Source of the DNA: Polytrichum commune
Lineage: Eukaryota; Streptophyta; Polytrichopsida; Polytrichales; Polytrichaceae
Direction of reading: 5' to 3'
Length of the DNA: 64,000 bases
Assembly: GCA_950295325.1 (NCBI GenBank)
Contig: OX485804.1
Coordinates: forward strand, 4,898,001 to 4,962,000
The position numbers were made by a program, and so were the translations under genes. Below the pieces are notes generated by a model. The model made no database searches. It was not told the origin of the DNA and was given only the letters and a program-made list of their open reading frames with translations. Below, piece by piece: positions 6,742-60,344 of this stretch; positions within the stretch are counted from its first letter, which is position 1; the number at the start of each line of letters is the position of its first letter.

Positions 6742-6818
6742 ATGTAGGTGACCAAAACTCTAGACCACAAGACAACATAATCCCACAATGACTACTCCAA
6801 TGCACATGCCCCACTTCA

Positions 6819-40152: not shown

Positions 40153-40156
40153 ATGT
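40153..40156. repeat. Putative 4-bp target duplication, left side of X
   Basis: ATGT directly precedes the left terminus of X, and ATGT directly follows the right terminus at 57359-57362. A 4-bp match has a 1 in 256 chance on its own; it gains weight from the inverted termini. Confidence 0.6.
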
Positions 40157-40209
40157 AACACTATATTCGTTATTTGGAGACTTTTTGTTAATTTTGAGAC
40201 TATTTAAGG
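40157..40209 (+). repeat. Left terminal inverted repeat of X
   Basis: It starts AACACTATATTCGTTA and continues with TTGGAGACTTT, then a second GAGACTATTTAAGG segment. The first 28 bp match the inverted right end. The first 53 bp also match the left end of Y at 57414 with roughly six substitutions, showing that the same terminus was used twice. Confidence 0.75.
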
Positions 40210-40466
40210 ACGTGGCTTTCACATTTATAGGAATGAAAACACTAAAAATATGCTATGTTCCCAATTTTGGAAACAAATAAGAGACTCAAATGCATGGAAC
40301 TACACATTAACAATAAGAAAATGGGATATATGAAAACATTTGCATATGGAAAATCAATATCATATTTATTGAATAGGGGTTGAAGTACAAAATGCAAGTG
40401 GAATATCCAATATTAGGCGAAAGTCCTAGAAACATAATTCCACAACTACATGTATGTTAATATAGC

Positions 40467-41363
40467 CTATACGTTCGGATCATGATTACGACTCACTACT
40501 TTTGCTTTTGCAATACTATTATTAGCATTTACGGCCGTTTCACGTTCCTTTGCTTTCATGGCCTCCATGGCTCTAAAGATCTCGGGTCCGCGGCTGTAAC
40601 CTTGTTTATTTGTTGACCCCGAATATGTGCCATTTGCCCATATTTGCTGACCCCCTTCCGAATAAGTGGAATACGAATGCGTTTGGGAAACCGAACGTCT
40701 TGCACTCTTCCGTAGGGCCAAACAACGATCAGACTCGCAAGAAGCTGTCTTCAGTGTTCGCCTATCCAATGACGAAGTCGATGATGCCCGGCCCACATTC
40801 GTGTACATTGGGGTCTGAACAATGACCATAAATATATATAATGAAGTGGGTTAGTATAAGTGGTTACAAGTTACGGATGGAAGTCCGAAAAACCCAAGAA
40901 GTTGAAATGCACTAATACACGGAAATCATCAAGGAAAAACTTGAGAATGCCAATAGTTGGGCACCTTCGCCTTTGGGGCGCTGGTTAGAGCTTTTGGGAC
41001 ATCGACGGGTGTAGATACAAGCCCGAGAGGGACGTTCGCAAACGCCGGGACATCAATTTGGGGTTCATCCATGCAAAGGCGTCTGGTCGACCGTGGATTA
41101 CGGACGTGCTTCTCACTGCGGAGGGGAGATGGAGATGGACTTGGAGAGTAATTGAGTTTTGCAACCTTTGCAGGAGGGCTATCCACGACTCCGTCTTCAA
41201 ACCCGGAGTCTTTGGAGTAATCAACAGCAGAGGCAGCATCGACGGCCGAATATTGGAATAGTGAAGGCATTGCAACGTCGCTCATACCAAGGGAAAGGGA
41301 GCCGGTGTCTGCCTGAGATGCAGACATGCCATTGACGACACTTTTGGGTGCTTGGTGAGGCAA
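40467..41363 (-). CDS. Ser/Pro-rich protein of element X, two exons, function unknown
   Basis: Exon 40965-41363 (133 codons) is joined to exon 40467-40814 (115 codons plus stop). The donor AAG|GTGCCC and the acceptor TTCAG|ACCCC give phase 0. Both exons have a paralogue in element Y (57813-58790). The conserved core is MPSLFQYSAVDAASAVDYS, then a Ser/Pro/basic stretch. In the last exon SSTSSLDRRTLKTAS, RKSARRSVSQTHSYST and YSRGPEIFRAMEA are conserved. No enzyme motif is seen; it may be a disordered regulatory protein. The first exon begins after an acceptor-like TGTCTTAG and lacks its own upstream ATG. The Met of MPSL, present in both copies, is a possible start, or an upstream exon is missing from my model. 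Confidence 0.62.
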
Positions 41364-41455
41364 CTAAGACACAAAAATACATTACAAAGATAAGGGGAGA
41401 AATGTTAGATATTTACATGGAGAGTCCAAGTACAAACCCAAAATCATCAAAGTTT

Positions 41456-44400
41456 TCATATTAATTTATTGAGTCTAGCGTAGCCGTACAATCTCCTAAA
41501 TTCCTCATCTTGTGGGCCTAGAGGCCTATTGCCAATTGGGTTGGAGAGCACAAAATCCGGGACACTTCCGGGGTGATAGGCAAGCCTCCTAATGTAGGGT
41601 CCTAGTTCACTCTCTAGAAAGTTGTCATTTCTATCGCTTTCCCAAGGATCCGGGAATATGCAATTGCCCGGGGGATTGAGAATACTCTTTGCCGGGCTGT
41701 CGTCAATGAGGAGTGTGTTATCCGGGGTGGGCCAACAACCGTGGGGAACCCCCTCCAACATAGGGACGCCCACCCAGAGGTTCTTCCTCAGGACCTTTAA
41801 GAATTGAGGCCCACGACCCCCTCCGACCTTGGGTACAATATTGCCACTACGGTCATAGAGGTCATCGCAGTGTTCTTGACCGAGAAGCAAGCATGGCATT
41901 GCGAGTTCTCGGAAAAGGAAACCGACGATGGCCTTCGTGTTGTCCATGAGCATAGAGCTCCAGATGATGACATGGGCGAAGCCAAGGACCTCACGAAGGA
42001 AGCTCCTCAAACCGGGGCGGGCACGTACAACCTTCTTATTTATGAGAGTATCGAAATGTCCGCCGTAATCCATGTCTTGTGGACTACGGAAGGGCCCCTT
42101 GGACGCACTATTCGAGATATGTTTGGATTGACAAAGCACCCCATTGAGGTCAAATATTATGAACGGTTTCATCATGGGCGCGCTTGGTTTTCCCGCGGGG
42201 TTGCGACATATCTCCGACGGACCCTGTGATGGAACATTCTATCTAGGTAAATGGTACTACTCAAGAAAACCAATTGACAAGCATGGATAAACTCAACACA
42301 AATTATAAGGCCAAAAATAATCCGAACCATCCAGTTGAAAAATTGGTATTAATGTAATTGGTGATATACATTTGGTGAATAATATACATTGTCGCAAAAA
42401 ATATCTGTTGAAGTTAATGGAATCTATGCTAACAAAATTGTATCCACCCGCCGGGCGAAGTCGAGGATTGAACTCGATAATATACACACGCCACGAAGGA
42501 GGCAGACAAGGAAGTTTTGGACGCGCGTCCGTAACGTGGGAGGCATGCTCAAAGGTTGATTACCTCTTCAAGGGCGAGGTCCGCGCCAGCAGTGCCTCCC
42601 TCACCTGGCCCCGTCATGGGCACAAGATCCGGACGCGCGTCCGCAAAATTGTCCAGATCTTCGACCACCAACAAGGTGTCTCCAGCCGCTTGCGACCCTT
42701 GAGTATCCACGTAAGGCTGATCCTCGTCTGTGGAGTCTTGGCTGCCCCGCATATGTACATCTTCATCGCCGATGGGGGCATTGCCTTCATTGACATCTGT
42801 CTCGGCGGCACCCGCCATGTCACGTGCCGGTATCTCCTCCACTCCTGTAGGATGAGAGGAGGGCTCCTCTGGAGTGGCGACAACAAGGGGAGAGGGCGGG
42901 ACAATCAACGCGGGGGCTGGATAAGCATGCTCGGGTATATACACCGCATGGCTACTAGACGGAGGCCGCATGAGAGTGGGGGGCATAGACATGACGGCAT
43001 CGGGAGCTGTATAGACTACAGGGGGTCTTGCCTGCAAGCTCTGCATCAGGCTCATAAATTGTTGACTTTGGGCCAAGAACTGTTGATTTTGGGCCATGAG
43101 ATCGGCGTGCCTTCGAGCAGACTCCAACCTAGCTTGCTCCATCTCAGCTTGGATGGCGGCCATCTTTTTGGCGTGCTCCTCGTTAGCTTCTCGAAGCCGT
43201 TGGTCAAGCTCTTCCTTCATTCGCCTCTCCATCTTCTCGTCCAATTCGGACACTGACATCGGCTCTTTCTTCACCTTGCCAGGTTCCGTAGGCAAGGCAG
43301 AGATGGCATTGTGAATCCTAATCTCATCCTCGTCTTCATCGGAGAGCTCCAAGACCGCGCCTTCAGGGTATTCGTTGTATGGCGTCTTGTTCCTCTTTCG
43401 TCGACTCTCACGATATAGAGAGATATCAGGCCTCAATATCAACTCCAGCACATCCCTCCCCTCCATAGGGGGTAGATCTGAATGTTGAGATCCCCCTCCA
43501 GATGAAGCGGTGCATCCGCCTTCTGCCGCAAGGTCCACATCCTTCTCGGCCATAACTCCTGGAGCACGAGATGGACCCGCAGTTGAGGGAAATCCAACTC
43601 GAGAGGTGGGAGTCCCAAAAGGTGAGAGAACAGGGGTATGAGGGACCCTTATCGGAGTGAAGTTCACGCGTGCCTCCTGCGCATCCGTGTCGTCTGTTCC
43701 CAGCAGGAAAGCACTTGGATTAATTGGGTCGCGAACAAGGCCGTGTAAAGGCTCCTGTGTGGAGGGTTGCGCTCTTGGGGAACTGGGATCTTGGTCCTCT
43801 TCAGGGTCTGTCTCCATTCCGGGCATTGCCTCTTCTCTAGAAGAAAGAGGCACAACAGGATGGGGTGTAAGGACGTCCATGATGTCCTGGATATCCATTT
43901 TGGAGGCCATTACCCTGTGAGTATGGGCGTCATCGTAGTCGGAATCCTGCACAAAAGAATTCACCTGCAAGCCAAGCATCTGGACCATAACAAGAAAATT
44001 AGATAAGAACAATAGTGGTGATTGCATATAAATGAGGCTAGATGTCAACACGTTATACGGACGCGCGTCCGTAAAACCACCACTCAAAAGTTGGACAATT
44101 TTACGGACGCACGGTCGTAAAATTCACATGCACCTGATACTGGGTTTTTACGGACGCGCGTCCGTAAAATAACTATGCAAAAGATAGGTGGGTTGAAAGA
44201 CAAACAAATACTCACCAGTGCTGCATACATAAACTTCGTGCCTCCGAAGACGTTGTAAACTGTCTCACTCATGACAGTTAAAGCCTTCAAGACCCCTATA
44301 TAAAAGTCCATCCGGAGCTCGAACGCCGGATAGATTGCATGCATTGTCTCCTCAACAAGCTCCTTGGGATGTGGTGGCGGCAACGAATAGACTTTCCTGA

Positions 44401-46321
44401 ACACCTCGTGTGGTTTAATGGGCAATCGCCCAGTTGGGGAAGACTTGCGTGTTAAGAAATAAAGCTGCACAGCTCCCACTTGCTTCACCCCCCTTGCCTC
44501 TTGAATGAAAGTGATCCCTTCTGTCTTCGCTGGGATGTAGGTGCTGTGGTACATATCGTATTCGAGGTCCATCGTTGATGTGTACAGATGGACAATGGAT
44601 GTGGACCTCTCTTGCTCTACAATCCATAACCACACATGAGGCTCGAAGAGGGCAGGCGAGCGATAGCTCTTGAAGGCTTTTAAGAAGGGCTCGTAGAAGG
44701 GTGCTCCCGCAACGTCTTGCTTCCATGCTCCGGGAATTGCACGAAAATCAAAAATGGCGAAAGGGCAACCCCTGGGGTCATCTCTCACAGAGGCTCTTGA
44801 AGCATGGGTGTCCCATGCGCCGAACTTCATGCCCTTTGCGACCGTGCAGAATCTTGCAAACCCTCCAAATTTCGCGTTCTTTTTCCTATCGAGAAAGTGA
44901 ACATACAACCCTGCCTCCCTCTCGTCGATGGATCCCTTCTTTTCGTTCCTTCTGGATCGTTGGGCAAGGAAGGATGATGCCCCTCTTATCAAAGCTCGCA
45001 TTGAGACGCCATTGATGTGGTATTCACCCTTCAGCTTCCTCCAATTCTCCCACACGATCTCACCATCACTATTAATGAGGTTGTGGGTGGGTAGCAATTT
45101 GCTAATCTCCCTTACAGCCATGGTCTTCTTCTTTCTGTAATCGCACCATTCCTTAATGTGGTACGTGGATGGCTTCATGTGCTTCGGCCGCTTCAGAAAG
45201 ATTTTGGGATAGGGCAAAGTTCTTCTAGGAGTTTCTAGAAGAATGTGTTCTGCTGCCCTGTACAGCTCCGAGTCCATCAATCCTTGGAGGGGACGAAAGA
45301 ACTCTCGCAGGATTGGTGGTACCTTAACTTTTGAGTCGCTCTTGTAGGTGTTCTCCGTATCTGGATTGACAAGGTCGCCGTTGTTGTGGGCATCGAAAAG
45401 TCGCAACCATATTGACCACGTCTCTTCTGTTGCAGTGATGAGCTTGAGTTCGCCTTTTAATTCATGCACTGTTTTCATGCCGCTTGTCTTCATGTCTATA
45501 CTCGAGAACTTTGTCAATATGACATTGCTGAATGTCTGCAAGAGGCGCGAATTGCAAGAAATCAGAACATTGAATTCAGTACAAATTAAATTCAAATATT
45601 TGAATCAGTGGGAGGAGAAGGGCCACATTTACGGACGCACGTCCGTAAATCTATTTGAGTAACATACCTGCCATTTTGGGTTCTTCACGACAGCATTATC
45701 TCTTTCTTTTGGGGGACATTCGTGCTCCACCCACAAGGTCCTCCCAGCCACGATGTTGGCTGCCCATGAAGCCTCGAACTGCCTCACTTTATTCCCCTGG
45801 TTCATGAAGGCAGATATTGCTATGAGTTGGTTCGAGTCCTTGGAATGCACGACGAATGCCTTCCAATATCGGATTGTCTCCTTTAATGGGCTTTTCCACT
45901 CGTCGTCTTCAAGGAGAGCTTTTGCAGCCATTACACTATGTTGGCCGTCGACAATGTAGAACTCTCCATTCTTGAGAATCGGCCAATTTTTTTCGTTGAC
46001 TTCAACGATAGGATCCTTTGGTGTCACACAAATGGTTTGCCTGTCAAACTTGGGGTTGTTCATGATGTTGTTCATTTGCCACCATACACCGCTTTCTTCT
46101 TTTGCTCTGGTATTCATACTTTCGGTGCCCTTGTGGCATTTGTAGACGTCTACTTCGAAAGTAAAATACCTGCCAAGGGGCCAGCATCCCTTCGTCTTCT
46201 CATCGAACTCTTGGAATATTTTTGTTGAGAGTTCGGCGTCAGGGCGTTGACCCTTTTTGAGGAGTGGAGCGACAGTCGGTGTAGAGCTGACATCCGGACC
46301 CTCTGTTAGTCCAGAGTCCAT
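41456..46321 (-). CDS. ParB/DGQHR-like + coiled coil + FCP1-like phosphatase fusion, cargo of X
   Basis: Four exons join in phase 0: 45668-46321, 44216-45535, 42564-43979 and 41456-42223 (218, 440, 472 and 255 codons). Junctions are CAG|GTATGT, CTG|GTGAGT and GAG|GTAATC donors with TTGCAG, GTCCAG and ATCACAG acceptors. Exon 1 has FYIVDGQHSVMAAKAL, like ParB/DGQHR domains. Exon 2 matches no family I know. Exon 3 has a basic SRRKRNK patch, an acidic SDEDEDE stretch and a coiled coil (about 43030-43280). Exon 4 is an NLI/FCP1-type HAD phosphatase: FIIFDLNGVL, VIIWSSM, LLIDDSPAKS and PPGNCIFPDPW. The second Asp of the DxD motif is Asn. The Y copy has the same 768-nt last exon and the same phase, which supports the splice. 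The acceptor used for exon 3 could also be 14 to 29 bp further in. Confidence 0.72.
42519..42530. repeat. GC palindrome in last intron of the X fusion gene
   Basis: Core GGACGCGCGTCC with a right arm GTAA; the left arm is degenerate. It lies in the 340-nt intron 42224-42563. Confidence 0.8.
42630..42643. repeat. GC palindrome inside coding exon
   Basis: CGGACGCGCGTCCG lies within exon 42564-43979. It is read through in frame as FADARPD near the end of that exon. Its flanking arms are lost but the core is perfect. Confidence 0.85.
44056..44169. repeat. Three GC palindromes in one 236-nt intron
   Basis: Perfect 18-bp copy at 44056-44073, imperfect copy at 44099-44122, and a perfect 24-bp copy at 44146-44169 (arms TTTTACGGACGC and its complement). 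All lie in intron 43980-44215 between GTGAGT and GTCCAG. Confidence 0.9.
45627..45650. repeat. GC palindrome in 132-nt intron
   Basis: 24 bp, arms ATTTACGGACGC and complement, with one central G-to-A change. It lies in intron 45536-45667. Confidence 0.9.
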
Positions 46322-46360
46322 CTGCGAGTGAGAGCGTTTACTCGCCTGTCTGCTCCCTCT

Positions 46361-46957
46361 TTATGCACCACTCTGCGAGGGCCTTGAGGATTCCGGCACT
46401 AGTTTAGGCACACGCTTGGGTCGTTCAGGAACGACTTGTTTTTTCTTATCTTTCCCCTTTCTGGCCTCTAGCAAGGCTCTATTTACTCTTGTTACATTGT
46501 TCAAGAGTCGTCCAAGCCGCTTACCCGTCCAAGGTGCATTGCATGCATAGTCTTGGAACTCCGTCTGGAGATTGAAGCAAGCCGCATCTGTACTAGCATT
46601 CTCACACTCATTTTTGTTGAAGGGGTGGTAGGATTCGTGCAAAATGAAAGTGACCCGATCTTCTTTCTTCTCAAGGTCTATTACTACATAATCCCCTTGT
46701 GCCACTGCACACTCTACTGTCCACGATTTAAGCTTTATCCACTTCTCAGCTTCATCTATGTCCGTCTTCATTTGATATGCAAATCTAAGCACAAATATTT
46801 CTTTCTCGTCCTTTTCTACCAATACTGTCCAATTATCCACAATTTCATCTTGTGGCTTGTAATGGTCGTTGGGACTTATGTCTTTGATGGCTTCTGGTAG
46901 CGGAGGAATGAGAGCTTCTGCGAACATCTCAATTGCATGTCTCTTTTTAGATGCCAT
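46361..46957 (-). CDS. N-terminal exon or separate small gene upstream of the fusion gene (198 aa)
   Basis: The frame starts at ATG 46957 (MASKKRHAIEMF), immediately after a good acceptor, ATTTGCAG, and ends at TAA 46361-46363. The same frame stays open from 46360 through the ATG at 46321 that starts the fusion gene, so this one stop is all that separates them. The product is charged and ends in a Lys/Pro-rich tail (KKKQVVPERPKRVPK). I recognise no domain. Either it is a short upstream gene, or it is the true N-terminus, cut by a nonsense mutation or by a small intron I cannot place (no good donor lies in the last 120 nt). Probable 5' untranslated exons lie at 48079-48137 (followed by GTAAGT) and upstream of 48523. 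Confidence 0.55.
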   Translation of the reverse strand: MASKKRHAIEMFAEALIPPLPEAIKDISPNDHYKPQDEIVDNWTVLVEKDEKEIFVLRFAYQMKTDIDEAEKWIKLKSWTVECAVAQGDYVVIDLEKKEDRVTFILHESYHPFNKNECENASTDAACFNLQTEFQDYACNAPWTGKRLGRLLNNVTRVNRALLEARKGKDKKKQVVPERPKRVPKLVPESSRPSQSGA

Positions 46958-47010
46958 CTGCAAATGATAAGATAGATAAGTTAGAATTCTTGGCAAAAGA
47001 TATAGATCAT

Positions 47011-47036
47011 ACTTTACGAACGCGCGTTCGTAAAGT
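47011..47036. repeat. GC palindrome, variant GAACGCGCGTTC, perfect 26 bp
   Basis: Arms ACTTTACGAACGC and the exact complement. Compared with the main form, G is A on the left and C is T on the right, so pairing is kept. It lies just before the acceptor of the first coding exon. Confidence 0.92.
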
Positions 47037-47137
47037 TTTCCAAATTGTCTCAATTACATTTTTGGATCCAAATGAAAAGATACATTTCTTCCAAATACGC
47101 ATAACGCGTATATTATATACTCAAATATCTCTATAAG

Positions 47138-47157
47138 TTACGGACGCGCGTCCGTAA
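47138..47157. repeat. GC palindrome, perfect 20 bp
   Basis: TTACGGACGCGCGTCCGTAA, identical to its own reverse complement. Confidence 0.95.
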
Positions 47158-47282
47158 ACTTCGCAAAGATAGTATGGTGGTAAATATCAATGTATTCAAG
47201 TTACGGTTAATATTTTTTTGAGAGTCTTGTTTCACACCTACATTTTTTTGAGAGTCTTGTTTCTCACCTACACAAAGATCCA

Positions 47283-47719
47283 CAAAGTTTACGGACGCGC
47301 GTCCGTAAACTTTGAGTATTATAAAGGCTATTTTAATATGCCTAATATTACAATATTTGGCTTCGTTTGCGTAATATGTTGTTTGAGAGGCTTGTCTCTC
47401 ACCTACACAAAGATCCACAAAGTTTACGGACGCGCGTCCGTAAACTTTGAGTATTATAAAGGTTATTTTAATATGCCTAATATTACAATATTTGGCTTCG
47501 TTTGCGTAATATGCGGTTTGAGAGTCTTGTTTCTCACCTTCACAAAGATCCACAAAGTTTACGGACGCGCGTCCGTAAACTTTGAGTATTATAAAGGCTA
47601 TTTTAATATGCCTAATATTACAATATTTGGCTTCGTTTGCGTAATATGTTGTTTGAGAGGCTTGTCTCTCACCTACACAAAGATCCACAAAGTTTATGGA
47701 CGCGCGTCCGTAAACTTTG
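47283..47719. repeat. 135-bp tandem array, four units, each with a 32-bp palindrome
   Basis: Palindromes at 47283-47314, 47418-47449, 47553-47584 and 47688-47719 are spaced exactly 135 bp. Each has CAAAGTTTACGGACGC as one arm and its complement as the other; the last has one change. The spacer (about 103 bp) is nearly identical between units and contains AATATGCCTAATATTACAAT. It probably lies in the 5' untranslated intron (46958-48078) of the minus-strand gene. Because 135 is a multiple of 3, both strands stay open, producing false repeat proteins. Confidence 0.95.
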
Positions 47720-48078
47720 AGGATTATAAAGGCTATTGTAATGTTTGCGTATTCCAATGTTTTCATTAATGCTCCGTGTTTTTCGGGACTTTACCTTGTC
47801 GTCCAATATGGTTTTGCCCTCCAAATAAGAATGCAATCTTACTTCACTGCAATAGCAAACACTGCACTGCAGATTGACAACATAAGGCACTTTCAGAACA
47901 CTGACATGTCCATAACTAAATGATTCTTAGAATGTAGCCATAGACAAAGTACTAAACAAATTCAGAATTCCTTGAAACTGGAATCTCACATTCTGTCATG
48001 CTAACCTTAAGCCCTAAACCACAACAACCCAAAATTGCAATCATACAAAATGCAATTGCAATGTTCTAAAAAACTTAC

Positions 48079-48137
48079 CTTTCTAGAGTGTTTGCTCCTA
48101 AACCACAACTAGCTACTCCTGCTGCAGCTAATACCAA
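48079..48137 (-). other. Probable 5' untranslated exon of the X minus-strand gene
   Basis: On the minus strand, TTCATTTGCAG precedes this 59-nt segment and a consensus donor GTAAGT follows it. It contains no ATG. Another strong donor, GTAAGTTCTCC, ends a possible first exon at about 48524. That exon would contain the palindrome variant at 48531-48544. Confidence 0.5.
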
Positions 48138-48530
48138 CTGCAAATGAACAATAAAATTGAGGTCAGAAACCTCTAGTAATTCAATGTGCACATGCATGAT
48201 TCAACATTGAGAACTACTCAAAAAAAGTTGCTCATAAATCATATTCATGCAACACAAGTGAAAGGAAACTATTGATTTGTATGCAAAAAATATAATGAAC
48301 TACATGGTGAAGCTACAACTGAAACCCTAATGAGCAACATCTGAAACACTAATTACCCTTGCAACAACTGAGATCAACAACTGAAAACAACCTAATGAGC
48401 AGTAGCAAGCAACAATGAGCATCCTAATGATCTAATGAGCAGCAAGCAAGCAAGCAGCAAACAAAACTTACTAATGAGCTAATGAGCTAATAAGCAAATG
48501 AGCAGCAAACAAGGAGAACTTACTCTAGCT

Positions 48531-48544
48531 CTGACGCGCGTCAG
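48531..48544. repeat. GC palindrome, variant CTGACGCGCGTCAG
   Basis: A 14-bp perfect palindrome. The usual outer CGGAC/GTCCG pair is changed to CTGAC/GTCAG, again keeping complementarity. Confidence 0.75.
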
Positions 48545-48589
48545 CAATTGACCAATAAGAATGAGTTTTGCATTGTGAGGAAAGAGAAG

Positions 48590-48995
48590 CAAGACCAGCA
48601 AGGGAAGCAAGAGAAGAGAGAGAAGAAAGTGAAGATAAGGGTAAGAAGCAAGAGAAACAAGAGAAGAAAGTGAAGAGAAGCAAAAGAAGCAAAAGAAGAT
48701 GAGCAGATGAGCAAGAGAAGATGAGCAAGAGAAGATGAGCAAGAGCAGATGAGCAAATGAGCAAGAGAAGCAAGAGCAGATGAGCAAGAGAAACAAGAGA
48801 AACAAGAGCTGCAAGAGAAGGAAGCAAAAGCACGAAGAGGAGGGCAAAAGGGAGCTGGTGTACTTTGAAACCCTATAACCCTAAAGCAAGAGAAGCAAGA
48901 GCAACAGTAGAAGGAACGGAAGGAAGAGATGATAGAGAAGGAAGGAAAAGCACGAAGAGCGAGGGCGAAAGGGTGCTGGAGTACTTGGAACCCTA
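48590..48995. repeat. Purine-rich low-complexity tract with a tandem duplication
   Basis: The plus strand is built of GAAGCAAGA, GAGCAAGA and GATGAGCA words. A segment at about 48815-48880 (AAAGCACGAAGAG, GGGCAAAAGGG, GAAACCCTA) recurs with changes at about 48935-48995. It may form the first exon or promoter of the minus-strand X gene. Long minus-strand frames rich in Leu/Ser come from this composition. Confidence 0.7.
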
Positions 48996-48999
48996 AAAC

Positions 49000-51900
49000 A
49001 ATGGCGTGCCTCCACGTGTCCCTACCCCAAACGTCGCGCCCAATCGCCGGCCTATACCCTTACGTGGCATCACCCTACTGGTCTATATTTGGTATTGAAA
49101 TAGGGGTTTAATTTATACTTAGTTTGGTGATTTTATTATCATATTATGTCATAATAACATCTTATGTTTATGCTAAGGCAAGTTAAAAGTCACACTAAAT
49201 GTCACTCTAAATATAAAATGAGCCATCTCGTTGCCTCTTCTCTTCACTTTTGATAATGAGTGAAATATTCATACGAGCTCTAGAAAGTATTCATTATTTT
49301 AGGAAATTATATTAGGGTGTGAGGTTGAGTAAATTATTATGTCATTGTCAACAATTAAATGACATCAATAATAATAATAATATCATTTTGGAACTCCAAA
49401 CAATGAGAGAAACTAACTACAATTTCTAGTGTGGCCTCTATGGAGAGTGGGGGAGCACCTTTCATTAAAACCTAGAATCACGTGCGTTCACTGCATACTC
49501 TAAAAACCCCCTAATATATACAAGTGATTTTTTGTGAAATGAAGTAATACACATACAATTGCAACAATAAATATACAAGCGACAATATGTATACACAAAA
49601 AAACATTCATTCATATATATTAGTCATTACTCGGGGGGGCAGTGTGTTAAAAAAATAAGGATATAGGGGGGTATTACTTTCAATTCTCTTATTTTTTTCA
49701 CATGCTATCATTATATAAATTTCTACTTTGGGTTAATAGAAAAATGGCTTGCATTACTTATAATTCCAAATTACCAATTATTCCATACCCTATACTACTT
49801 TAAAGATGTCCAGTGCCATTTTTGATACCCTATATTACTCTTAAGTCCATAATTTTATAATTTTTTGCCCCCATGTTTTTAAAATACCCTATCATTTGTT
49901 TGCACGTATATTGCTACTCCAACCAATGACTGCCCCCCCCCCCCCGAGAGTCATTAACATAAGTATACAAATGCAATTATTGTCTCTAAGTCTACCATGG
50001 AATGATCAATAAGATCATATGTCCACTTGTTGTTAGCCCCTTTTGATACCAACATAAACCAATCTCCACGTTTGATGGACGGTCCATCAAGTCAAATGGA
50101 TCCCTATACTCCACCCAACGATTACCAAACTTCCTCCGCATCCTATAAACTCTCCCAACAAACCAAACCTTATGAAAACTTATCCAATATGAACACTTAT
50201 GATATATAGTATAGTAACAATACCATACAAGTACAATTATTCTATACTTTTTAAAGGCCTTCCATATATGTACGTAACTATAAATTATAACATGTATACC
50301 ATATGTATATGCAATACGGCAAGGTCCAAATCAATACCCCTCCTGTGCACTCACGTATAACTCGTACATGTTTAGTACAGTGCACCCCCCGAGCTATGGA
50401 GGGGACTCTATATTTCGAGAATAGTAATAATATTCAATAAAAGGATGTCTTGTTGATTAACTTCAGTATAAGAATTCTTTTTCTTCTCAAAGGTGGGATT
50501 CAAATGCAATTGGGGCAATATACCAATTGGCCACAAATTCTCATGAAACTTTGCCAAGAAATACTTGTGAATCCCTCAATTATCGCAATAAGTTGTGAAA
50601 CGCAATTAACAAAACCGAAACATCGAGATATGGGGAGAATTCATATGCTTGTAATACCTTAAACAACATTACGGATTAATTCAATCCCTCCACACATAGG
50701 TCTAAGCTTGTATTAAAACAAAATGCATGGGTATGTGTTGAATGTACATCCCTCTTGTACATTAAACAACCTTTCGGATCCATCCAATCCTTCCACACAT
50801 AGGCCTCAGCTTGTATTATCGCTTATAAGTAGTAGCAAACTTGTTTATATTTGGAGTTTTCTTTCGGTGGTGAGTTGTGTTTAGGACTCGATTATAGAAT
50901 ACCAATATACGATCTTCAAAACCTTTCATCAAAAGTATATGTTTAAAGCAAATGGTTTAAAGCCAAAGAAAGATTTAAAAAAATGAAAGGTAAGGTTACC
51001 CCTAAATTTGCTTCACATTTGAAATGTTTATGGTTTTATTTTACAAAATTTAAAGGTAGTCATATAGTTTTGAATTACTTCCACTTAAGGCTACACATGT
51101 ATTGGGAGTTATTAAGTTAACCATGCGTACCGTATGTCGTTGTGTTTGTTCAGGGGTGGGTGGTTATAGGGTATAGGGTATAGGGTATAGGATTTAGGGT
51201 ACCACGTATGAACTAATGAGAGTATCCCCCTTCTGTCACCAACTTAAAATTGCTTGCCTTTATAATATTTGGATACCCTACCCTCCCCTTCTCTCCATTA
51301 TGCTTTGTTGGGCTCATAATGTTACTTAGAACAACAACTGCTATTGTTTGAGTCAATATTGTAGATAATGTACATGGGGTACTAAAAATTGTTTTTTGTC
51401 TCACGTATAGTACATTAAGAATGCTAGTATTATTTTTTTTGAAATAAATGTTGATGTATTGAAGGGGGCCCTAAGGTTAAGAGAGGAAATTGAGAATATT
51501 GATTTTAAAGCAACCCATTGTGCCTATGACAATAGATGTGCTATTTTCATGGCATCTAGGCGCTCAAAGTTTGTGTACGTATTAATATAATTATGTATAG
51601 GTGTGTAAAAGTGGGTAAATTAAACGGGTTGGATGGTAGGGTGGTGGCAAATGTAATTACTAGTTTAAATGCTAGATGAGAGGAGATAACATGATATTGG
51701 AGTGAATATCATTACATCGTATGCAAAACAATAAAATAGATGCTAGTTTAATTTTGAATGACACGTATTTTTATACTCCATGTACTATTGTTGTTGTTGT
51801 GGTTGATGTTTCACACGACACTATAATTTTCTGTCTCCTAGTTCTACAATGACCTCTCAATATTAGGTACTTCAATATTATAAACCACCCCTCAACAATG

Positions 51901-52410
51901 TTCAATGCTCATATATTATTAGCCTATTTTCTTTGTTGTCCACCATAAATACGTAGATGCCTTTTGCTTTGTCATTATGTGGACTCATCGTCTATGCATG
52001 TTGTCCACTATGAATACACATTCCATTGTAAGGCTGGCACACGGAATGTAGTAATGTTAGGTTTTTATTTATAGGACGTAGATGGTGGCTAGTATCCTAT
52101 GTTGGAAAACGGATCCAAGGGAAACGATCAGTACTTAAGGGGACACCCCTCCACCAAGGGACTCTTTTTGCATCTCAGATGTGGGTTGCGCTGCTTGGAC
52201 CCTTGTAGTGTTCTGGATGTTTATTTCGTGCAGGTACAGATCCTATTGCAATGGACCTTTTATACCCTAAACACTAAATTCCAAGCCATAAACCCATTAG
52301 TGGAGCCAATTTTTATGTGGATTGCACTGTCTGGATCCTTATAGTGATTGATTTTTGTTTATGGCAAGTATCGTTCCTGGTGAAATGGTCCTATTATGGC
52401 GCCGCAAATC
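49000..52410. other. Central part of X, no gene recognised
   Basis: The AT-rich interior between the two divergent X genes. It has a run of 13 C at 49933-49945 and about four TATAGGG units at about 51165-51195. A few short frames carry no motif. It may hold promoter sequences of the plus-strand transposase gene, but none is identifiable. Confidence 0.5.
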
Positions 52411-52415
52411 ACGGA

Positions 52416-52820
52416 GGTTTACGGACGTGCGTCCGTAAACCTTAAACCTCTTGCTTGGTTGGATATCTATTTATGTGAGAATTGCACTTGAGCTATTTCA
52501 TGTACATTGAGGTTTACGGACGCGCGTCCGTAAACCTTAAACCTCTTGCTTGATTGGATATGTATTTCTGTGAGAATTATACTTGAGTTATTTCATTTAC
52601 ATTGAGGTTTACGGACGCGCGTCCGTAAACCTTAAACCTCTTGCTTGATTGGATATCTATTGTTGTGAGAATTATACTTCAGCTATTTCATGTACATTAA
52701 GGTTTACGGACGCGCGTCCGTAAACCTTTAACCTCTTCCTTGATTGGATATCTATTGCAGTGAGAATTATACTTGACCTATTTCATCTACATTGAGGTTT
52801 ACGGACGCGCGTCCGTAAAC
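52416..52820. repeat. 95-bp tandem array, five palindromes
   Basis: GGTTTACGG begins at 52416, 52511, 52606, 52701 and 52796, an exact 95-bp period. Perfect palindromes reach 28 bp (52510-52537 and 52605-52632) and 30 bp (52699-52728). The first has one change. The spacer contains CTTAAACCTCTTGCTTG and GAGAATTATACTT. It shares only the palindrome with the 135-bp array at 47.3 kb, so the two arrays arose separately around the same motif. It lies in the 5' region of the plus-strand transposase gene. Confidence 0.96.
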
Positions 52821-52977
52821 TTTTGCACCTTTTTGTTCCATTGTTCGGTATTGCACCTGAGCTGACATCATGACCACTTGCCATGTATAGTATACCAACG
52901 AGACTGTATTGTCATGAAAATTTTCTGGCTCACGTCCAGTAACCTAAACCTATTTGTGCTAGTAATGAGGTACAGAG

Positions 52978-53460
52978 AGGTTTACGGACGCGCATCCGTA
53001 AACCTGCAAACCTTTGGTTCCATACTTTTCACTATGTGCCATGTAGAATATTACATTGAGACTGTACGGTCAATGGAGGTATAAGATCCCTAAACCCTAA
53101 GCTTACATCACCCTATGTGTCATAGTATAATATTTTGACATTCATAATACACAGTAGGAACCTGGCACCTGGACATCTTGGTTTCCTAAACCTCTGTGTG
53201 TCTTGCACAACACTGACTTTTGACATTCGGATGTTTGCGGACGCACGTCCGTATACCTATGTTGTATAGTTTGCGAAAACATTTGCACATGATATTGACC
53301 TCTTTGACCACGAAGAAATTTACGGGTGCGCGCCCATAAAACTGTCATGTTTTTGTTGTCTGGACCTTTCCGCCGACTATGAACAAATAAAGACATATGT
53401 ATGCGCGTGCTTGCACTGATAATGTTGTTACATGGAGATATACGTACGCGCGTTCGTATA
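52978..53460. repeat. Four diverged GC palindromes before the transposase gene
   Basis: Copies lie at 52978-53005 (one change), 53233-53256 (degenerate), 53319-53340 (TTTACGGGTGCGCGCCCATAAA-type, read as two 11-bp arms) and 53439-53460 (arms TATACGTACGC and GCGTTCGTATA). Several changes are matched on the opposite arm. Confidence 0.85.
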
Positions 53461-53601
53461 CCAATGTGTCTTTGTTTCCAGGCCATGAAATCCACTATTG
53501 TTGACATTGTGTTTCATTGACAATAAGCGTTAGGACTATCCATGACATTTATTGAATGGGATATTTTGACATACTCTTCATGTGGGTCACTTGTAGTGGC
53601 C

Positions 53602-56600
53602 ATGGATTCCAACGTCCGAGATAGTGCATTCGAGTTCTCTTCGGAAGCGTCAAGCTATGCTAGCGAATTTGAAGGTGTCATGGAACATGAAACTACAATT
53701 GGTGTCGCCAATGCAGAGGATGATTTCATACCAACATGTGAGGGTTATTCGCGGGAACAATGGATTGATCTTGATGTTGTCATAGTCAATGGATACGGCG
53801 TCCCCGTGGCCAATGGTGTTTGTAGGAACTCAAATCCTATGGACTGTATTGATGCAAATCCCCTTGGGGAGGAAGATGTTGGGGTGTGCATTTTGAACTC
53901 CTTACATCCATTGGAAGTACCTCCTGGTTGGAGATTCTCTCTTCGTCGATGGCCGTTGCGAAGTGTTCTTCACGATGGTGTCAGCTTGTGGAATCATACA
54001 CGTCGTTTTGAGGAAATACAAAAGACTTTGTTCGCCACAATGCGTCCTAGACAAGGTCGGCGTAAATATGATTCCGTTCGCGTGCCCCGTGAACCCACGC
54101 AACGTCGTCGAGATCTAACATTGGGAGACACATCTATTAGGTCCGTAGCAACAAAGGATTGTTGTGCAAAAATGTGTTGCCAACTATTTCCCCGTGACAA
54201 AATCAAATCTTTGAGACAAGAGATGTGGCTTGCGGACTTTCGGATGCGATCTGCAAAGAAACTTGAAGTCCATCGCAACATGCACTTTGATGCCGAAGGT
54301 CGTAAGGTTGTGACCTTGGAAAATATAGAGGTATGCTGCACGGCATGGTACATTATACATGCAGTTTCAAAGGCAGATTTTTATAGGTTCCGGAACTACT
54401 CGCTGCAAGGACGGCGTTCTCGGTTCCATGGCAACTCTGGTACAAAGAAGCCCAGGGAGGCAACACTCCAAGCAGCTGCAACACTATCAACCATCATTAT
54501 GCCATTAGCAGATGCGATGCCACACAAGACACGGACTCTGCCGTCGGGGGAAAAGGTTGTCCAGATGGTTTTGCCTACAGGGACAAAATGGAAGAACATA
54601 CTTATGGATGTTAATGAGGTTGGCGAAAAGGCTGGATGTGGGCCGATTTCGTTGTCAAAATTGAGTGTGATCAAGAATCAACAATTTGCAGAGTACATTA
54701 CGAAGAGGCCTGGGGATAAGTTTGCCAGGTGTTCTGCTTGTGAGAAATACAAGGGCCTTCGAGATGCACATCCCATAGGGACTGAGTCGCACAATAGACA
54801 TCAACGGAAATACATTGAGCATGTCAACAACCAAGAGGCACACCGTCAAGTCTACTACAAGAATCGCGCATTATCGATAATGAGGCCGAATGAGGTTTTG
54901 ACAATCATTCATGACAAAATGGACCATGCGAAGACTGCGTGCCCTTGTTATGCACGGAAAATAAAGGCTACAGATGGATATTTCAAGCTCCCAATATCTG
55001 TCACAGGTTCGTTGGTTTTCACATTTTTTTTGCGAACCCACATACTCATCGTTAAGAGTTACGGATGTACATCCGTAAGTGTTTGTTCATTTTCTTGGCC
55101 TGCTTGCGGAAAAATTGAATTTCCTTATCATAAATGATATTGGAATGTACTTCTCATTTGTATGTCTTAATTCAGGTATGATCGCACATGGCCATGTGGA
55201 CGTCAAGTATGCACATTATGGCTTGGATTTCTATCCAGGCGACGCCAATCATACCGTAGGGTCTTTTGCAAAACTTCTACGAGATCTTGAGAGTCCGCCA
55301 ACATCATCCTCTCGCGCTCTTTTTGTTGGATGTGGAACAACACCGATTTATGAGGCTGTGCTAGAGGGGAAAGAAGTATGTCTATCGTCACTGCAAGAAC
55401 CGCCTGAACAAACCGTTCTTGCTAAACCTTTGCCTCCAACTCTACATGTGCAACTTGACAATTGTGCCAAAGACAACAAATGTCGATACGTGTTTTGTTT
55501 TTGGTCATTGCTCGTAGCCAAGGGCATTTTCAAAGAAGTGTTTGTGTCTTTTTTGATGGTTGGCCACACGCATGATGACATTGACGCTTCATTTGGACGT
55601 TGGAGTATGAAGTTGCACGAGGAGGATTTTCCGACGATTCCTCTTCTCATGAAATCATACATGGATTTGGATAATGTGCCAGTCATCCCGCATTTGATTG
55701 AAGAAGTGCCCGATTTCAAAGCGTTTATCGAACCATTCATTCTTAAGGGAGGTGACCGTTTAGTGGGCCATACCAAGGCTCAACAATTCCGATTCTATAT
55801 GCGTGATGATGGTTTGCCGGCCATGCAATTCAAAGTTTTGTGCACTTCCCCGGATTGGGGTCCAGAGGAAGGGATACTCGTATGGCGCCAAAACGAAGAG
55901 GGCAAATGTATGCTACCTGATGGGGAGCCGAAGCCTTGCAAACCCAACCCCATGAGGAATGGACCAGAAATCATCAAAGGTATATCCGGATTCATCCAAT
56001 ATTGGAAAGAATTGTGCGAGGAAGACATCACAAGGCGTGTTCGGGATACCCACGAACCATTGATTACGTACTGGGATCGCATTCGCTCAGCATTGCTAGC
56101 ACCCGATGTCGAAACACATTCATGTTTGACACAAGGTTTTTGGCCACAAAGCCGAGTGACAATCGTGGAATCTGAGGCCATGTTCTTCGACAATGGGGAC
56201 ATCCATGAAGAGTTCGCAGCGGACGACCATTATGTTGGCCCAGCTCGTAATCGTCCGGCTCCATCATTTCGTGTGGCTGTTGATTGCTACGAAGGGTATA
56301 TGATCCTCGTACGTCCTGGAGATGATGAGCACCCTAAACCGATTTGGTTGGTAAAAGCATTGTCATCACCAAATTTTGTTCCAACTAGCCCAAATTTTCA
56401 TCAAATTGAGGTGGAATATTGCCGTCCTAGCACCAAAGATCAAAATGTGCTCCGCACATATTTAGGGTGGGACACCAAAAAAGGTTTCAAATGGACAATG
56501 GACTCAGCATACGAACCAATATGGATAAACACAGATACCATACTTTGTGCTTGGAAACCACGCAAAGGTTCCAAATCAGAGACAATGACCATCCCCCAAA

Positions 56601-56698
56601 AACATATAGATTTTGCCAAAGACAACTTGGCACGTATTGCTGCTGCAGAAAACGATGTCGAGAATGGAAATGAAGCTGAAGATGAAGATGGAGAATGA
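53602..56698 (+). CDS. DUF7869-type putative DDE transposase of element X
   Basis: Two exons, 53602-55006 and 55176-56698, join across a 169-nt intron (ACAG|GTTCG to TTCAG|GTATG) to restore the conserved VTGMIAHGH. The product is about 975 aa. Exon 1 has basic and Cys-rich parts (CCAKMCCQLFP; RCSACEKYKG) and ends with IIHDKMDHAKTA. Exon 2 has YPGDANHTVGSFAKLL, LHVQLDNCAKDNKCRYVF and VGHTHDDIDASFGR, the hallmark segments of DUF7869 proteins, then an acidic tail. The Asp residues in KMDH, QLDN and HDDID could form a DDE-like triad; this is inference. The start at 53602 has a good context (GCCATGG); an in-frame ATG at 53542 is possible. A 3' splice site TTTCCAG at 53481 suggests a 5' untranslated intron. 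The intron holds a palindrome. No stops or shifts are seen, so it may be active. Confidence 0.82.
55059..55078. repeat. GC palindrome, compensated variant in transposase intron
   Basis: TTACGGATGTACATCCGTAA is a perfect palindrome. Relative to the main form it has four changes, all C-to-T or G-to-A at CpG positions and symmetric between the arms. Confidence 0.92.
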
Positions 56699-57330
56699 TA
56701 TTGACGTAGGGTTGGACCACAATTATTTGAAATGTGTCTTGGTTTTTCATGAAATATATGGCATTGGGGTCGAATACTATATTAGACACATTTTATAGCA
56801 ATTTTATAGATTACAATTATATATCATGATTGTATTGATTTACGGATGTGGAATCCAACTTCACATGCGCTATCAAATGTTTTTTATATGTTTGTGTTTA
56901 CGGATGTGGAGTCCAAACTATATAATTATATTGCAGATGCTAATTTGCAATTTCTTATACACACTGTCAAATTATTTTAATATTGTTGCGTTTGGGATGT
57001 GCCGTTCAATTCACCTACAATTGGCTAAGATGTTATGTTTGGGATACGCATCCAAGAGTCCCTAGTAGATATAAAATCAGATGGCTATTTATAGATTCGT
57101 TAATTTTGTTCAATACAAAATCAAAAATACAAAATAATTGTGAATTTGTGACATTGGAATATTGTGTTGGCGTAGTTTTGATTATCCCCCAAATAATTAC
57201 TATATTTAGAAACATATATATTCATCACATATGGATCTTTCGAACATTATGTTGCCATTGTTCCCCATGTTCCCTACGTTCACAATATTCGCATCCGAAA
57301 CTACGGGTCCAATTTATTTTGAGACTTTCC
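56699..57330. repeat. Right subterminal region of X with half-decayed palindromes
   Basis: TTTACGGATGTGGA(A/G)TCCAA occurs at 56839-56857 and 56897-56917. Weaker relatives, TTTGGGATGTGCCGTTCAA and TTTGGGATACGCATCCAA, lie near 56991 and 57039. They look like decayed copies of the GC palindrome. No gene is present. Confidence 0.6.
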
Positions 57331-57358
57331 AAAGTCTCCAATTAACGAATATAGTGTT
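57310..57358 (-). repeat. Right terminal inverted repeat of X
   Basis: Read on the minus strand it begins AACACTATATTCGTTA and continues with ATTGGAGACTTT, matching the left end at 27 of 28 positions. ATGT follows at 57359-57362. Confidence 0.75.
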
Positions 57359-57812
57359 ATGTTCTTATTTCCGCATAGTGTCAAGTTTGATCATTAGCTT
57401 CTTAACAACCTTGAATACTATATTCGGTAATTGGAGACTTTTTATTGATTATGAGACTATTTAAGGATGCATTTTTCAAAATTGGACCAGAAATGACAAC
57501 CTAAAAATCCCATATGTATAATTTTGGATACTATTATTAGACATAAAGGCATGAAAGTGAACAAAAATGTGAGACATACATGAAATAGTTGCGTATGAAA
57601 TGAGAGATCGTTATGAATGGAAGGGAAGATGCGGAGCATGATTGGAAGTTGAATGAATTCAATGGGATTGAAATACAATTATAATGGAAATACCATCAAT
57701 GTCTTGAGTAACTTGGAATAGAATAGAAAGTAAGCACTAATATGTTCTACACCTAAGCGCATTTAGGGAGTCTGTCCTACTAGCACGCTTCTAGTCCCAC
57801 TAGTCCGACCCA

Positions 57813-58790
57813 TTATTTTTTTTTCGCGGCCTTGTCCTTGTTTTTGGCAGCCTCCATGGCTCTGAAAATCTCAGGCCCGCGGCTATAACCGTTTTTGTTG
57901 ACGGACCCGGAATACGTGTCGTTCTTCCAAATTTTGGACGCGCTCCCGAATTGTACGGAGTGGTATTGTGAGTGGAATATGAGTGCGTTTGCGAGAGGGA
58001 ATGTCTTGCGCTACGGCGGAGGGCCAAACAATGATCGGACTTGGATGATGCGGCCTTGAGGGCGTGCCTATCCAAGGAGGACGTGGAGGAGGGCCGGGCA
58101 CCAAGCGAGCAGGTAGCCACCTGCGAAACGTCATAGGAAGATAAGAATAAGAATGGAGTGGGGAAAATAATGAGAGCGGTTTGGGGTGGGCGCTCGTAAA
58201 GATAACGGCACGCACACGCAAGACAAGGGAAGCAAAAGCGGGAAAGGGGTTTAAGAGGGCACCTTGGCTTTGGGGACGTCCAAGCGGGGGACGGTGGGCA
58301 CGAGGGGGGCGTCAACGGGAGCATCCGGAGCCGATCGAACTATTGCATTGTTGAATGGCGGGGGGGAGTCGAGGCGTGGAGGGCCCACAATCGCGGAGGA
58401 CATTGCGGGGGGAGGAACGGAGTCGTCGGGGGAGGTGTGGCATGGGGGGCCTTCCATGCAGAGACGCCGGTTGGGCCCACGGCGAGCGATGGCGTCGTCC
58501 GTAGAGGGCGAGAGGTGTCCCAAACGAACGAACGTCCATTTCTCCTTGGAGAGGGAGGAGGGCGACGGGGCGTATGCGCGGGCGACAAGTGGGGGGGGGG
58601 GGGGGCTGTTGACGATGCCGTCGTCGATCCCGACGTCGCGGGAGTAATCCACGGCCGAGGCCGCGTCCACTGCCGAGAACTGGTAGAGGGATGGCATTTG
58701 GAAGTCCGTGACGTTGCGGGAAGGGGAGGCAAGGGGCGAGAGGGGACGGGAAGGGCCGTCGAGTACCGGGGCGCCACACAGGGGGGGAGA
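57813..58790 (-). pseudogene. Ser/Pro-rich gene of Y, frameshifted in last exon
   Basis: Exon 58263-58790 (176 codons) and exon 57813-58120 use the same AAG|GTGCCC donor as the X copy, with a CGCAG acceptor. Conserved words are MPSLYQFSAVDAASAVDYS, SSTSSLDRHALKAAS and RRSARHSLSQTHSYST. After SYSTHN the reading frame shifts. The homologous end YSRGPEIFRAMEA is in another frame that stops at TAA 57813-57815. The stretch between is 17 bp longer than in X and includes a palindrome-like TTGGACGCGCTCCCGAA (57934-57950). A run of 15 G at 58591-58605 encodes poly-Pro. The shift makes it probably defective. Confidence 0.68.
58591..58605. repeat. Run of 15 G in coding exon of Y
   Basis: Homopolymer read directly; on the minus strand it encodes consecutive Pro residues. 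Its length may be unreliable in sequencing. Confidence 0.95.
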
Positions 58791-59794
58791 CTGGGCAATA
58801 ACAACAACAACAACAACAAAAAGAAACATCCAAAAACGGAGCAAGCATTAGATATGTGAAGCACATGATACCAAGCAAAGACATGGAGGCATTTCAAATC
58901 AATTTATTTAATTTGGCGAGCCTCATGATGCTCTTATATACATTATCGCGGGGGCTTAGTGCCGCATTGCCGAAGGGGTTGGACCTAACAAAAAATGGGA
59001 TGCTACCGGCATGGAGCACAAGCTTTCTAAGGTAGGGTGCTAGTCTATCGACCAAAAATGTGTCTTTCTTATCGCCGGTCCAAGTATCCGGGAAGATGAC
59101 GTTGCCCGGGGGATTCAAGACGCTCTTGGCGGGGCTGTCGTCGATGAGGACGGTGTTCTCAGGAGTCGGCCACCACCCGTGGGGTGTCCCCTGCATCCGG
59201 GGGACGCCTCGCCAGAGTCTGGACCGGAGGACCATGAGGAACTGTTGTCCTCCGCCCCGTCTGCCAAACTTGGGCACCGGTTGACCTTTCTCGTCGAGCA
59301 GCTCGTCGCAGTCCTCTTGGCCGAGGACGAGGCAAGAGCTCGGGAGATCACGGAACAAGAAGTCGACGATGGGCTCCGTGTTCTCCATGACCATGGAGCT
59401 CCACACAATGACGTGAGCGAACTCGACCACCTCGCGAAGGAAGTCCCGCAAGCCGGGACGGGCGCGGACAACCTTGCGGTTCATGAGGGTGTCGAGCTCG
59501 CCGTCATAGTCCCTTTCGTCGGGTTGACGGAAGGGACGCGTGGGAACCTTGGGGATGTGTTGGGTATGACACAACACCCCGTTGAGGTCAAAAACTATGA
59601 AAGGTTTGTTCCGGGTGTGAGGTCCACTGGTCGAGGGGTTGCGACCTATCTCCGGGGGGTCCTGTGATGAACAACTCGACTAGTTTAATGCTATGATCCA
59701 ATAATGAAATTTTGCGTAGAAAATGAAGACAATGCATTATGGGAAAAGACGAGGAAGTGAGGAGGGTGCGAGGAATATGTGCTCAAGGGCACAC

Positions 59795-60254
59795 TTGCGA
59801 ACGAGCATTCGTGAATGAAGGTTGCGGGCGGCGATGCGCATCATTTACGAGCGCTCGTTCGTGAGCACGTCTACACGTACATTTACGAGCGGTCATTCGT
59901 GAAGGAGGTGGACAGTGGGTTGCACCCTTTCACGAACAAGCGTTCGCGAATGAGGTGGGTATGCAAGAATGAACATAATCGCATGAACATCCACAATAGA
60001 CAAGAAGGGGTCGAGGGCACAGAATTTGAAGCAATGCGATGCAGAGAACATAAGCTCATATATTAATTCGTTGAATATTTTACATTTCTCACGTGATAAT
60101 CTATCACATTTTCCTAAGGCAACATGATGCCGTGTCCTACAAAACTGGTCGGCCCTAAGGGGGATCGCTGAAGAGGGCTCTCGTGGGCCACTGGATGTCG
60201 ATGGAGAGAAAAACATCATGATGTCAGGGAGGTTACGAATGCGCCTTTGTAAAA
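59795..60254. repeat. Cluster of diverged palindromes in the Y intron
   Basis: Degenerate relatives with TTACGA-type arms lie at about 59795-59815, 59843-59864, 59882-59903, 59928-59950 and 60231-60254, mostly within the 619-nt intron 59662-60280. All belong to the GAACGC...GCGTTC subfamily. Confidence 0.7.
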
Positions 60255-60344
60255 AAATGGTATTCTCAGAAGAAAGTTACCTCGTCATCGGGGGGAGGGG
60301 CAACGGCGCTGGACCGAGCAGCAAGTCCCTCCTCAACGATTAAC

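Follow-up and report, generated by a model that had tools for sequence, protein, structure and literature searches.

A multi-copy 17.2-kb DNA transposon of Polytrichum commune with a DUF7869 candidate transposase, a ParB-like/phosphatase gene and dense element-specific palindromes

Between inverted ends in a 64,000-nucleotide stretch of Polytrichum commune DNA (assembly GCA_950295325.1, contig OX485804.1, positions 4,898,001 to 4,962,000; the whole stretch is hereafter called the window, and unprefixed positions refer to it) lie a gene for a DUF7869 protein and a gene for a ParB-like protein fused to an FCP1-like phosphatase. The locus raises the question of whether this region is a single mobile element and, if so, what such a fusion protein does in it. 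The analysis revealed that 40157–57358 is one complete multi-copy DNA transposon, and that each copy carries 21–27 sites of a 22-bp palindrome, TTTACGGACGCGCGTCCGTAAA (up to 2 mismatches, 11 copies), which went unmentioned in the initial annotation of this DNA. On balance, we consider it probable that the element moves by cut-and-paste, and that its ParB-like fusion protein binds the palindromes and thereby controls or de-silences the element, much as VANC acts on VANDAL transposons.

The initial annotation had described inverted ends of at least 28 bp with 27 matches, flanked by ATGT, and both are present. The left terminal inverted repeat (AACACTATATTCGTTATTTGGAGACTTT; 40157–40184, plus strand) is identical at 27 of 28 positions to the right one (57331–57358, minus strand), as seen in the sequence and in a genome search, and the target-site duplications ATGT occupy 40153–40156 and 57359–57362, as seen in the sequence and in the duplication test described below. 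In a search of the window, the 16-mer AACACTATATTCGTTA was found at both ends of the 17.2-kb element (0.02 expected by chance) and, with 2 mismatches, also at 57414, where a second left end begins. When the genome that contains the window (407.8 Mb in 64 contigs) was searched for the end pattern with up to 3 mismatches, 1341 forward and 1343 reverse matches were obtained; the reversed control gave 0 and 0. Among the matches listed, which include 100 exact ends on contigs C1–C3 (51 plus, 49 minus), there are 24 plus–minus pairs no more than 30 kb apart, 19 of them at 16.5–18.2 kb, and not a single pair in the reverse order (minus–plus) at 16–18.5 kb. Many of the listed exact ends have no exact partner, and some pair with the variant end AACACTATATTCGGTA (e.g., C1:27947644/27964932), which makes up most of the rows listed among its 53 + 54 matches.

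Ten other copies, selected because their exact ends lie 16.5–17.9 kb apart, were analysed together with the window copy (n = 11). All 11 hold the DUF7869 gene, the ParB-like/FCP1 fusion gene and a third gene between their ends; since the ten were chosen by this spacing, shorter copies with fewer genes may exist. Of the 24 listed pairs, 21 entered the duplication test, and matching 4-bp duplications were found in every case (the 11 full copies and 10 further pairs read at the ends). Among the 21 duplications there are 20 distinct 4-mers, none of them TTAA, so the target has no fixed sequence. A 2-bp duplication (TG, with ends TAACAC) would have been possible from the window copy alone; the other 20 pairs settle the length at 4 bp. 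Eight joined flanks were used as queries in a search for empty sites, and for three of them uninterrupted sites with 80–99% identity were found, as judged by coordinates and identities, not letters. The joined flank of L052 matched 2 places (99%), that of L056 matched 37 places (97–98%), and that of L042 matched five neighbouring satellite units (80–98%), running across the junction each time. The five flanks with no listed match are uninformative, because just 40 of the 169 first-look candidates were scored. The copy L042/L043 sits inside a satellite (C1:37237712–37239036), and the adjoining units are its empty sites.

The element is mobile. The initial annotation had inferred its unity, and had proposed looking for termini paired around these genes elsewhere, for a 4-bp duplication at other insertions and for empty sites with a single 4-bp target; the paired ends, duplications, empty sites and recurring genes now bear this out. 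Two adjacent elements, or ends paired by chance, might be suspected because the genes diverge from a gene-poor centre, but this reading is refuted, and left with next to no probability, by 11 separately inserted copies that hold all of the genes within the same ends and matching duplications. Elsewhere in the genome, two end pairs with matching 4-bp flanks lie farther apart (L034/L035, 61 kb, ATGT; L037/L038, 38 kb, ATAT) and could reflect greatly enlarged elements, insertions nested in one another or coincidence, and a plus and a minus end 7.6 kb apart (C1:21542854–21550411) possibly mark a shortened copy.

The gene structures are predictions made from the letters of the sequence by in-frame GT–AG joins, and agree with the two outward-running multi-exon genes initially annotated, DUF7869 on the plus strand and the long gene on the minus strand. 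The latter (the left gene; 4 exons, 1586 codons, ending in the phosphatase) begins with exon 1 (45668–46957), which encodes a sub-threshold YEATS-like N-terminal part, then a ParB/DGQHR-like motif region, and contains one in-frame stop in the window copy. Exon 2 (44216–45535) contains a conserved domain and continues the ParB-like protein, exon 3 (42564–43946; the 3′ splice site of intron 2 is one of three in-frame candidates) encodes an acidic/coiled Ser/Pro-rich linker, and exon 4 (41456–42223) encodes the NIF/FCP1-like phosphatase domain. The Ser/Pro-rich protein of the initial annotation follows the left gene, as a third gene with two exons on the minus strand (40467–41276; approximately 41276–40929 and 40814–40467). 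On the plus strand, the right gene encodes the 975-amino-acid DUF7869 protein in two exons: exon 1 (53602–55006) ends with a conserved HDKMDH region that contains the candidate first catalytic Asp, and exon 2 (55176–56698) carries LDN and GHTHDDID, with the candidate second and third catalytic acids, and a weakly SH3/BAH-like C-terminal part. Pfam profiles exceeded their curated cut-offs for both DUF7869 (137.7 bits vs. a cut-off of 26; E-value, 4.5 × 10−40) and the NIF/FCP1-like phosphatase (49.7 bits vs. 21.8; E-value, 4.4 × 10−13), and these two assignments of the initial annotation stand. The ParB/DGQHR label that it had given to the other half of the fusion is plausible, and rests on a YIVDGQHS motif and on sub-threshold profile matches to one stretch.

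The 11 copies form two subfamilies, A (window, L040, L044, L048, L058; 96–99% identical) and B (L042, L046, L050, L052, L054, L056; 97–99% identical), which are 84–86% identical to each other where alignable; the highest identity between copies is 98.9%. Every exon of the three genes is matched in all 11 copies, with ~340 bp of left exon 1 gone in L046, and five of the 11 (L040, L044, L048, L058 and L042) have both long genes open throughout their six exons. The window copy has its one stop in left exon 1, where the four other subfamily A copies have none. Between A and B, the ratio of nonsynonymous to synonymous substitution rates (dN/dS) is 0.09–0.12 for left exons 1–2 and 0.27–0.28 for exon 3 (three pairs), and, from two pairs, 0.17–0.18 for the phosphatase, 0.12–0.21 for DUF7869 and 0.23–0.26 for exon 1 of the third gene; within subfamilies it ranges from 0 to 1.7 and is uninformative owing to the few changes. 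The three genes are thus under purifying selection.

The conserved acidic residues make the DUF7869 protein a candidate transposase. The pattern HDK[MLI]D is found in 39 of the 43 DUF7869 rows of at least 560 amino acids (50 of all 67 rows), [VIL]Q[LMI]DN in 62 of 67 and GH.H[DE]DID in 58 of 67, and the candidate triad is spaced as HDKMD, ~122 residues, LDN, ~40 residues, HTHDDID. Judging by these motifs, the protein would be a transposase of the RNase H-fold DDE/D type that cuts and pastes the element. DUF7869 is without assigned function in Pfam, and a limited search of open-access literature (a corpus of 5.39 million papers) did not find it named; if the reading is true, it gains a likely job as the transposase of a giant element. 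Its best named relatives are from Physcomitrium (49%) and Ceratodon (48%). DUF7869 genes were also seen in nine loci (L001–L009) of contigs from cyanobacterial metagenome-assembled genomes, one of Synechococcales and eight of Trichormus, with a best identity of 50%; these loci are probably eukaryotic contamination, and they contain no palindrome of the type described here and no full end pattern, with one 11-mer match in L007.

In the window, the palindrome ACGGACGCGCGTCCGT occurs 22 times at up to 3 mismatches (0.02 expected), 20 times in the element and twice in the second copy beside it. At up to 4 mismatches, a 20-base consensus has 23 sites in the element and 7 in the second copy, which spans 3.5 kb here, and the complete absence of such sites from the rest of the window led to the rejection of the palindromes as general repeats; at 5 mismatches, there are 32 sites in the two elements and 2 in the rest of the window. 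First-order shuffles yielded 0.018 sites of up to 2 mismatches per element. Genome-wide, 5665 matches were obtained at up to 1 mismatch (control, 0), which at 15–20 per copy would correspond to about 330 full-length equivalents, and, by eye, 42 of the 43 sites of G/C type (41) or mixed type (2) among the matches listed on C1 lie inside the element family.

Within the element, the sites avoid coding sequence. The 11 copies together have 262 sites at up to 2 mismatches; their non-coding DNA (99.3 kb) holds 256 of these, and their coding DNA (89.6 kb) just 6. The left gene is preceded by a tandem array of about four 135-bp units, each with TTTACGGACGCGCGTCCGTAAA, at 47247–47742, and two palindromes lie just upstream of the gene (47014–47157; 47014 is of A/T type and 47138 of G/C type). 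Upstream of the DUF7869 gene, four to five 95-bp units, each with a palindrome, form a tandem array at 52414–52820, followed by four further degenerate palindromes (52982–53459; at 52982, 53235, 53320 and 53440). The introns of the left gene contain one palindrome in intron 1 (45629–45648), three in intron 2 (44055–44167) and one in intron 3 (42515–42534), and the DUF7869 intron contains one with a symmetrical double change, TTACGGATGTACATCCGTAA (55059–55078). A degenerate palindrome near the end of coding exon 3 (42627–42646) recurs at roughly the corresponding position in subfamily B, even though conservation of the left protein is lowest in exon 3 (72% at the amino acid level). The array units measure 135/95 bp in subfamily A vs. 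~53/66 bp in subfamily B, and their commonest core is identical. When L040 (A) was compared with L042 (B), the region upstream of the DUF7869 gene aligned in longer pieces of 70–78% identity.

The search with the left protein revealed 45 metagenomic relatives. Where open reading frames run past an exon into the intron, the palindromes of these relatives could be read as peptides (FTDARP, LRTRVRK, YGRAS and variants), and such a palindrome was found in 20 of the 30 relatives in the nearer clade and in 11 of the 14 in the farther one, with P0121, the sole relative with both exons in one frame, excluded from the count. Where codons tell the motif type, it is G/C in 13 of 13 nearer-clade and A/T in 8 of 8 farther-clade cases (13:0 vs. 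0:8). The genome of the window itself contains sites of the other (A/T) type, TTACGAACGCGCGTTCGTAA: 12 are listed on C1, none inside an end listed in the main end search, although one of the 12, at 2367515, lies 2.8 kb inside a variant end. At L080, a place with such sites, a 51–52-bp array of this symmetrical variant (ACGAACG..CGTTCGT) is located upstream of a distant ParB-like gene, with degenerate sites in its intron; the encoded protein shares 42% and 53% of its residues with the window protein over two main stretches, and is 68–81% identical to the metagenomic P0138, P0141 and P0165 in long stretches. In viral contigs, nothing was found for the ParB-like protein, the DUF7869 protein or the exact palindrome, and in prokaryote contigs nothing with the ParB-like profile.

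The preferred reading of these results is that the candidate DUF7869 transposase would cut and paste the element, and that the ParB-like/FCP1 fusion would be a sequence-specific regulator, which binds the 22-bp palindromes in promoters and introns, probably as a dimer. By analogy with VANC, the bound fusion may open, or keep open, the chromatin of the element for transcription, either as anti-silencing or as self-activation, and RNA polymerase II, or a factor associated with it, would be the target of the phosphatase. Transposase chemistry, palindrome binding and de-silencing are what we infer from motifs, site positions and this analogy. A wider reading, held tentatively and at somewhat less than even probability, takes the element to represent a eukaryotic transposon superfamily with its own self-recognition. 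In this reading, a ParB-like protein fused to a polymerase-type phosphatase would read 20–27 palindromes in the promoters and introns of the element and would relieve silencing at these places alone; the palindrome would change in step with the protein clade, and a parS-like logic would have been reinvented or captured independently of VANC.

Several points weigh against the preferred reading. The best ParB-type profile matches are below threshold and indicate weak homology (E-values of 0.012 for Pfam DUF6551 and 0.028 for PHROG ParB), and the AlphaFold model of the ParB-like protein is too poor for a structure search (mean predicted local distance difference test score, 46.5). The ParB-like protein is a candidate for the palindrome binder, and the DUF7869 protein, the third protein or a host protein may instead be the binder. 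The predicted structure of DUF7869 exon 2 had no RNase H match in the PDB (Foldseek/VIA; exon 1, with the expected first strand, is outside the model), and the C-terminal part alone matched, weakly, SH3/BAH/MazF-like folds. The 9 kb of L080 contain no end pattern and no DUF7869 gene, and subfamily A retains the A/T-type site at 47014, exact in 4 of 5 copies. Motif type appears to track the ParB-like clade in the metagenomic relatives, less firmly than the Fisher p-value of 4.9 × 10−6 suggests, which is overstated because there are two clades, assigned by identity, and the patterns were written after the tails had been viewed. Moreover, synonymous divergence between A and B is uneven (1.4–1.6, near saturation, for left exons 1–2; 0.7 for exon 3; 0.4 for the phosphatase; 0.3 for DUF7869), and therefore elements seem to have exchanged parts by recombination, the ParB-like part seeming to be an older divergence than the rest.

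Three other explanations of the palindromes have to be weighed. In other elements, dense palindromic element-specific sites are accessory transposase sites, and the tight linkage of motif and element would also be expected if the palindromes here served transposition, with a transposase or accessory factor bound for synapsis or bending, and not transcriptional control. The sites, however, are placed upstream of both genes and in introns, avoid coding sequence by 256 to 6, and at up to 2 mismatches never come closer than 2.1 kb to either end in any of the 11 copies, which makes this explanation unlikely; the distance argument is limited by a degenerate site with 3 mismatches in the intron of the third gene (40871–40890), 0.7 kb from the left end of the window copy. 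Short CpG-rich palindromes are typical of host factor sites, and, the link to the element's own protein being an indirect one, the sites might be bound by a recruited transcription factor, insulator or centromere-type protein, with the fusion doing something else. This we regard as improbable: nearly all of the listed G/C-type or mixed sites on C1 are inside the element family, and, in a single host genome, motif type differs according to the clade to which the element's own protein belongs. Least likely of the three, and by some way, is that the palindromes are passive, hairpin-prone sequences spread by tandem duplication and gene conversion and without binding function. Many sites do lie in tandem arrays, but sites persist in left introns 1–3 and the DUF7869 intron of both subfamilies, upstream of the left gene only 26–35 bp pieces of L040 (A) remain alignable with L042 (B), and symmetrical double changes (TTACGGATGTACATCCGTAA, ACGGCCGCGCGGCCGT) preserve palindromy.

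To our knowledge, element-encoded sequence-specific anti-silencing systems are rare, VANC in Arabidopsis being the worked example found. If the preferred reading is true, a protein that is unrelated to VANC and has a clear palindromic tag makes transposon self-addressing directly testable, with copies up to 98.9% identical and 5 of 11 open, and could offer a modular DNA-tag/protein pair. VANDALs are transposons of the Mutator-like element type. According to the available text of PMC5735166, experiments showed that the binding sites of VANC21 are short motifs, which lie in tandem repeats in the introns and upstream regions of VANDAL21. The element shares with VANDAL/VANC, as described in the accessible parts of PMC5735166 and PMC10398659, an element-specific short motif that is dense in introns and upstream regions and lies in rapidly changing tandem repeats, an element-encoded protein other than the transposase, and different motifs in different element families. 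It differs in that VANC motifs are non-palindromic and have one orientation (PMC5735166, in the text available), and no ParB-like or FCP1-like domain is mentioned for VANC in the accessible parts of PMC5735166 and PMC10398659. Binding and demethylation have been shown for VANC (available text of the same two sources), whereas the element described here is known from sequence alone. A motif that is specific to the element, dense in its non-coding parts and amplified in tandem repeats, as in the VANC type, was found.

Bacterial ParABS systems combine ParB with palindromic parS sites, and the element resembles them in a ParB-like motif region with a palindrome of roughly 16–22 bp in cis; unlike in ParABS, the gene contains introns and is fused to a phosphatase, no ParA was seen in the open frames of the window that were scanned, and the homology is weak. 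Among transposons, CACTA/EnSpm elements have ends that begin with CACTA and a 3-bp duplication, and were excluded by ends that begin with AACACTA and by the 4-bp duplication in 21 of 21 pairs. Sola elements have 4-bp target duplications and a DDD transposase; the element, compared with them by description and not with Sola sequences, is alike in a 4-bp duplication without fixed sequence and in a candidate D-D-D/E transposase. As a terminal inverted repeat transposon with 4-bp duplications it is of a known kind, and its self-recognition system is possibly new. Sola is listed as a superfamily of DNA transposons in the available text of PMC4455052, and curated bivalve Sola1 elements have a mean length of 5445 bp according to the accessible part of PMC10294476; the element differs in being about three times that length and in having three genes and palindrome arrays. 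Kolobok targets TTAA, with duplications of 3–5 bp in the KolobokP lineage (PMC9587614, in the text available), and a Kolobok or TTAA-type element was excluded by the 20 different 4-mers. Fungal DNA transposons that carry TET/JBP dioxygenase genes, thought to aid escape from epigenetic silencing (PMC12730594, accessible part), are similar in being DNA transposons with a captured gene thought to help evade silencing; their captured genes are different, and no palindrome array is mentioned for them in the available text.

The initial annotation also reported an adjoining second copy, alike in left end and gene order, which was recovered as a diverged element on the plus strand (57414–60945), with the left end AATACTATATTCGGTA, the third gene, a phosphatase exon 60% identical in amino acids, and its own palindromes. 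It is broken at 60946, inside its left gene, by another repeat, and neither its right end nor a duplication was seen. The junction of an element end and the left end of the second element, 80 bp apart, recurs with the same spacing at C2:5049368 and C2:5049448, 94 kb from the window copy, as if duplicated. A 3055-bp stretch starting with TGTGAGCCC is present in the window at 11354–14408 and 60946–64000 (100% identical; cut by the window end). Because a relative of its start (79.6%) lies in L080 (4811–5179), the stretch appears to belong to a repeat family that has a genuine end. No Rfam match at gathering scores and no tRNA were found in the window. Its remaining features include broken open frames on the plus strand (3766–7238), which by eye, from their translations, resemble a reverse transcriptase/RNase H of the long interspersed nuclear element type, a tandem array of 181/366-bp units (16879–18391), and a single uninterrupted open frame of 3225 amino acids on the plus strand (25248–34925).

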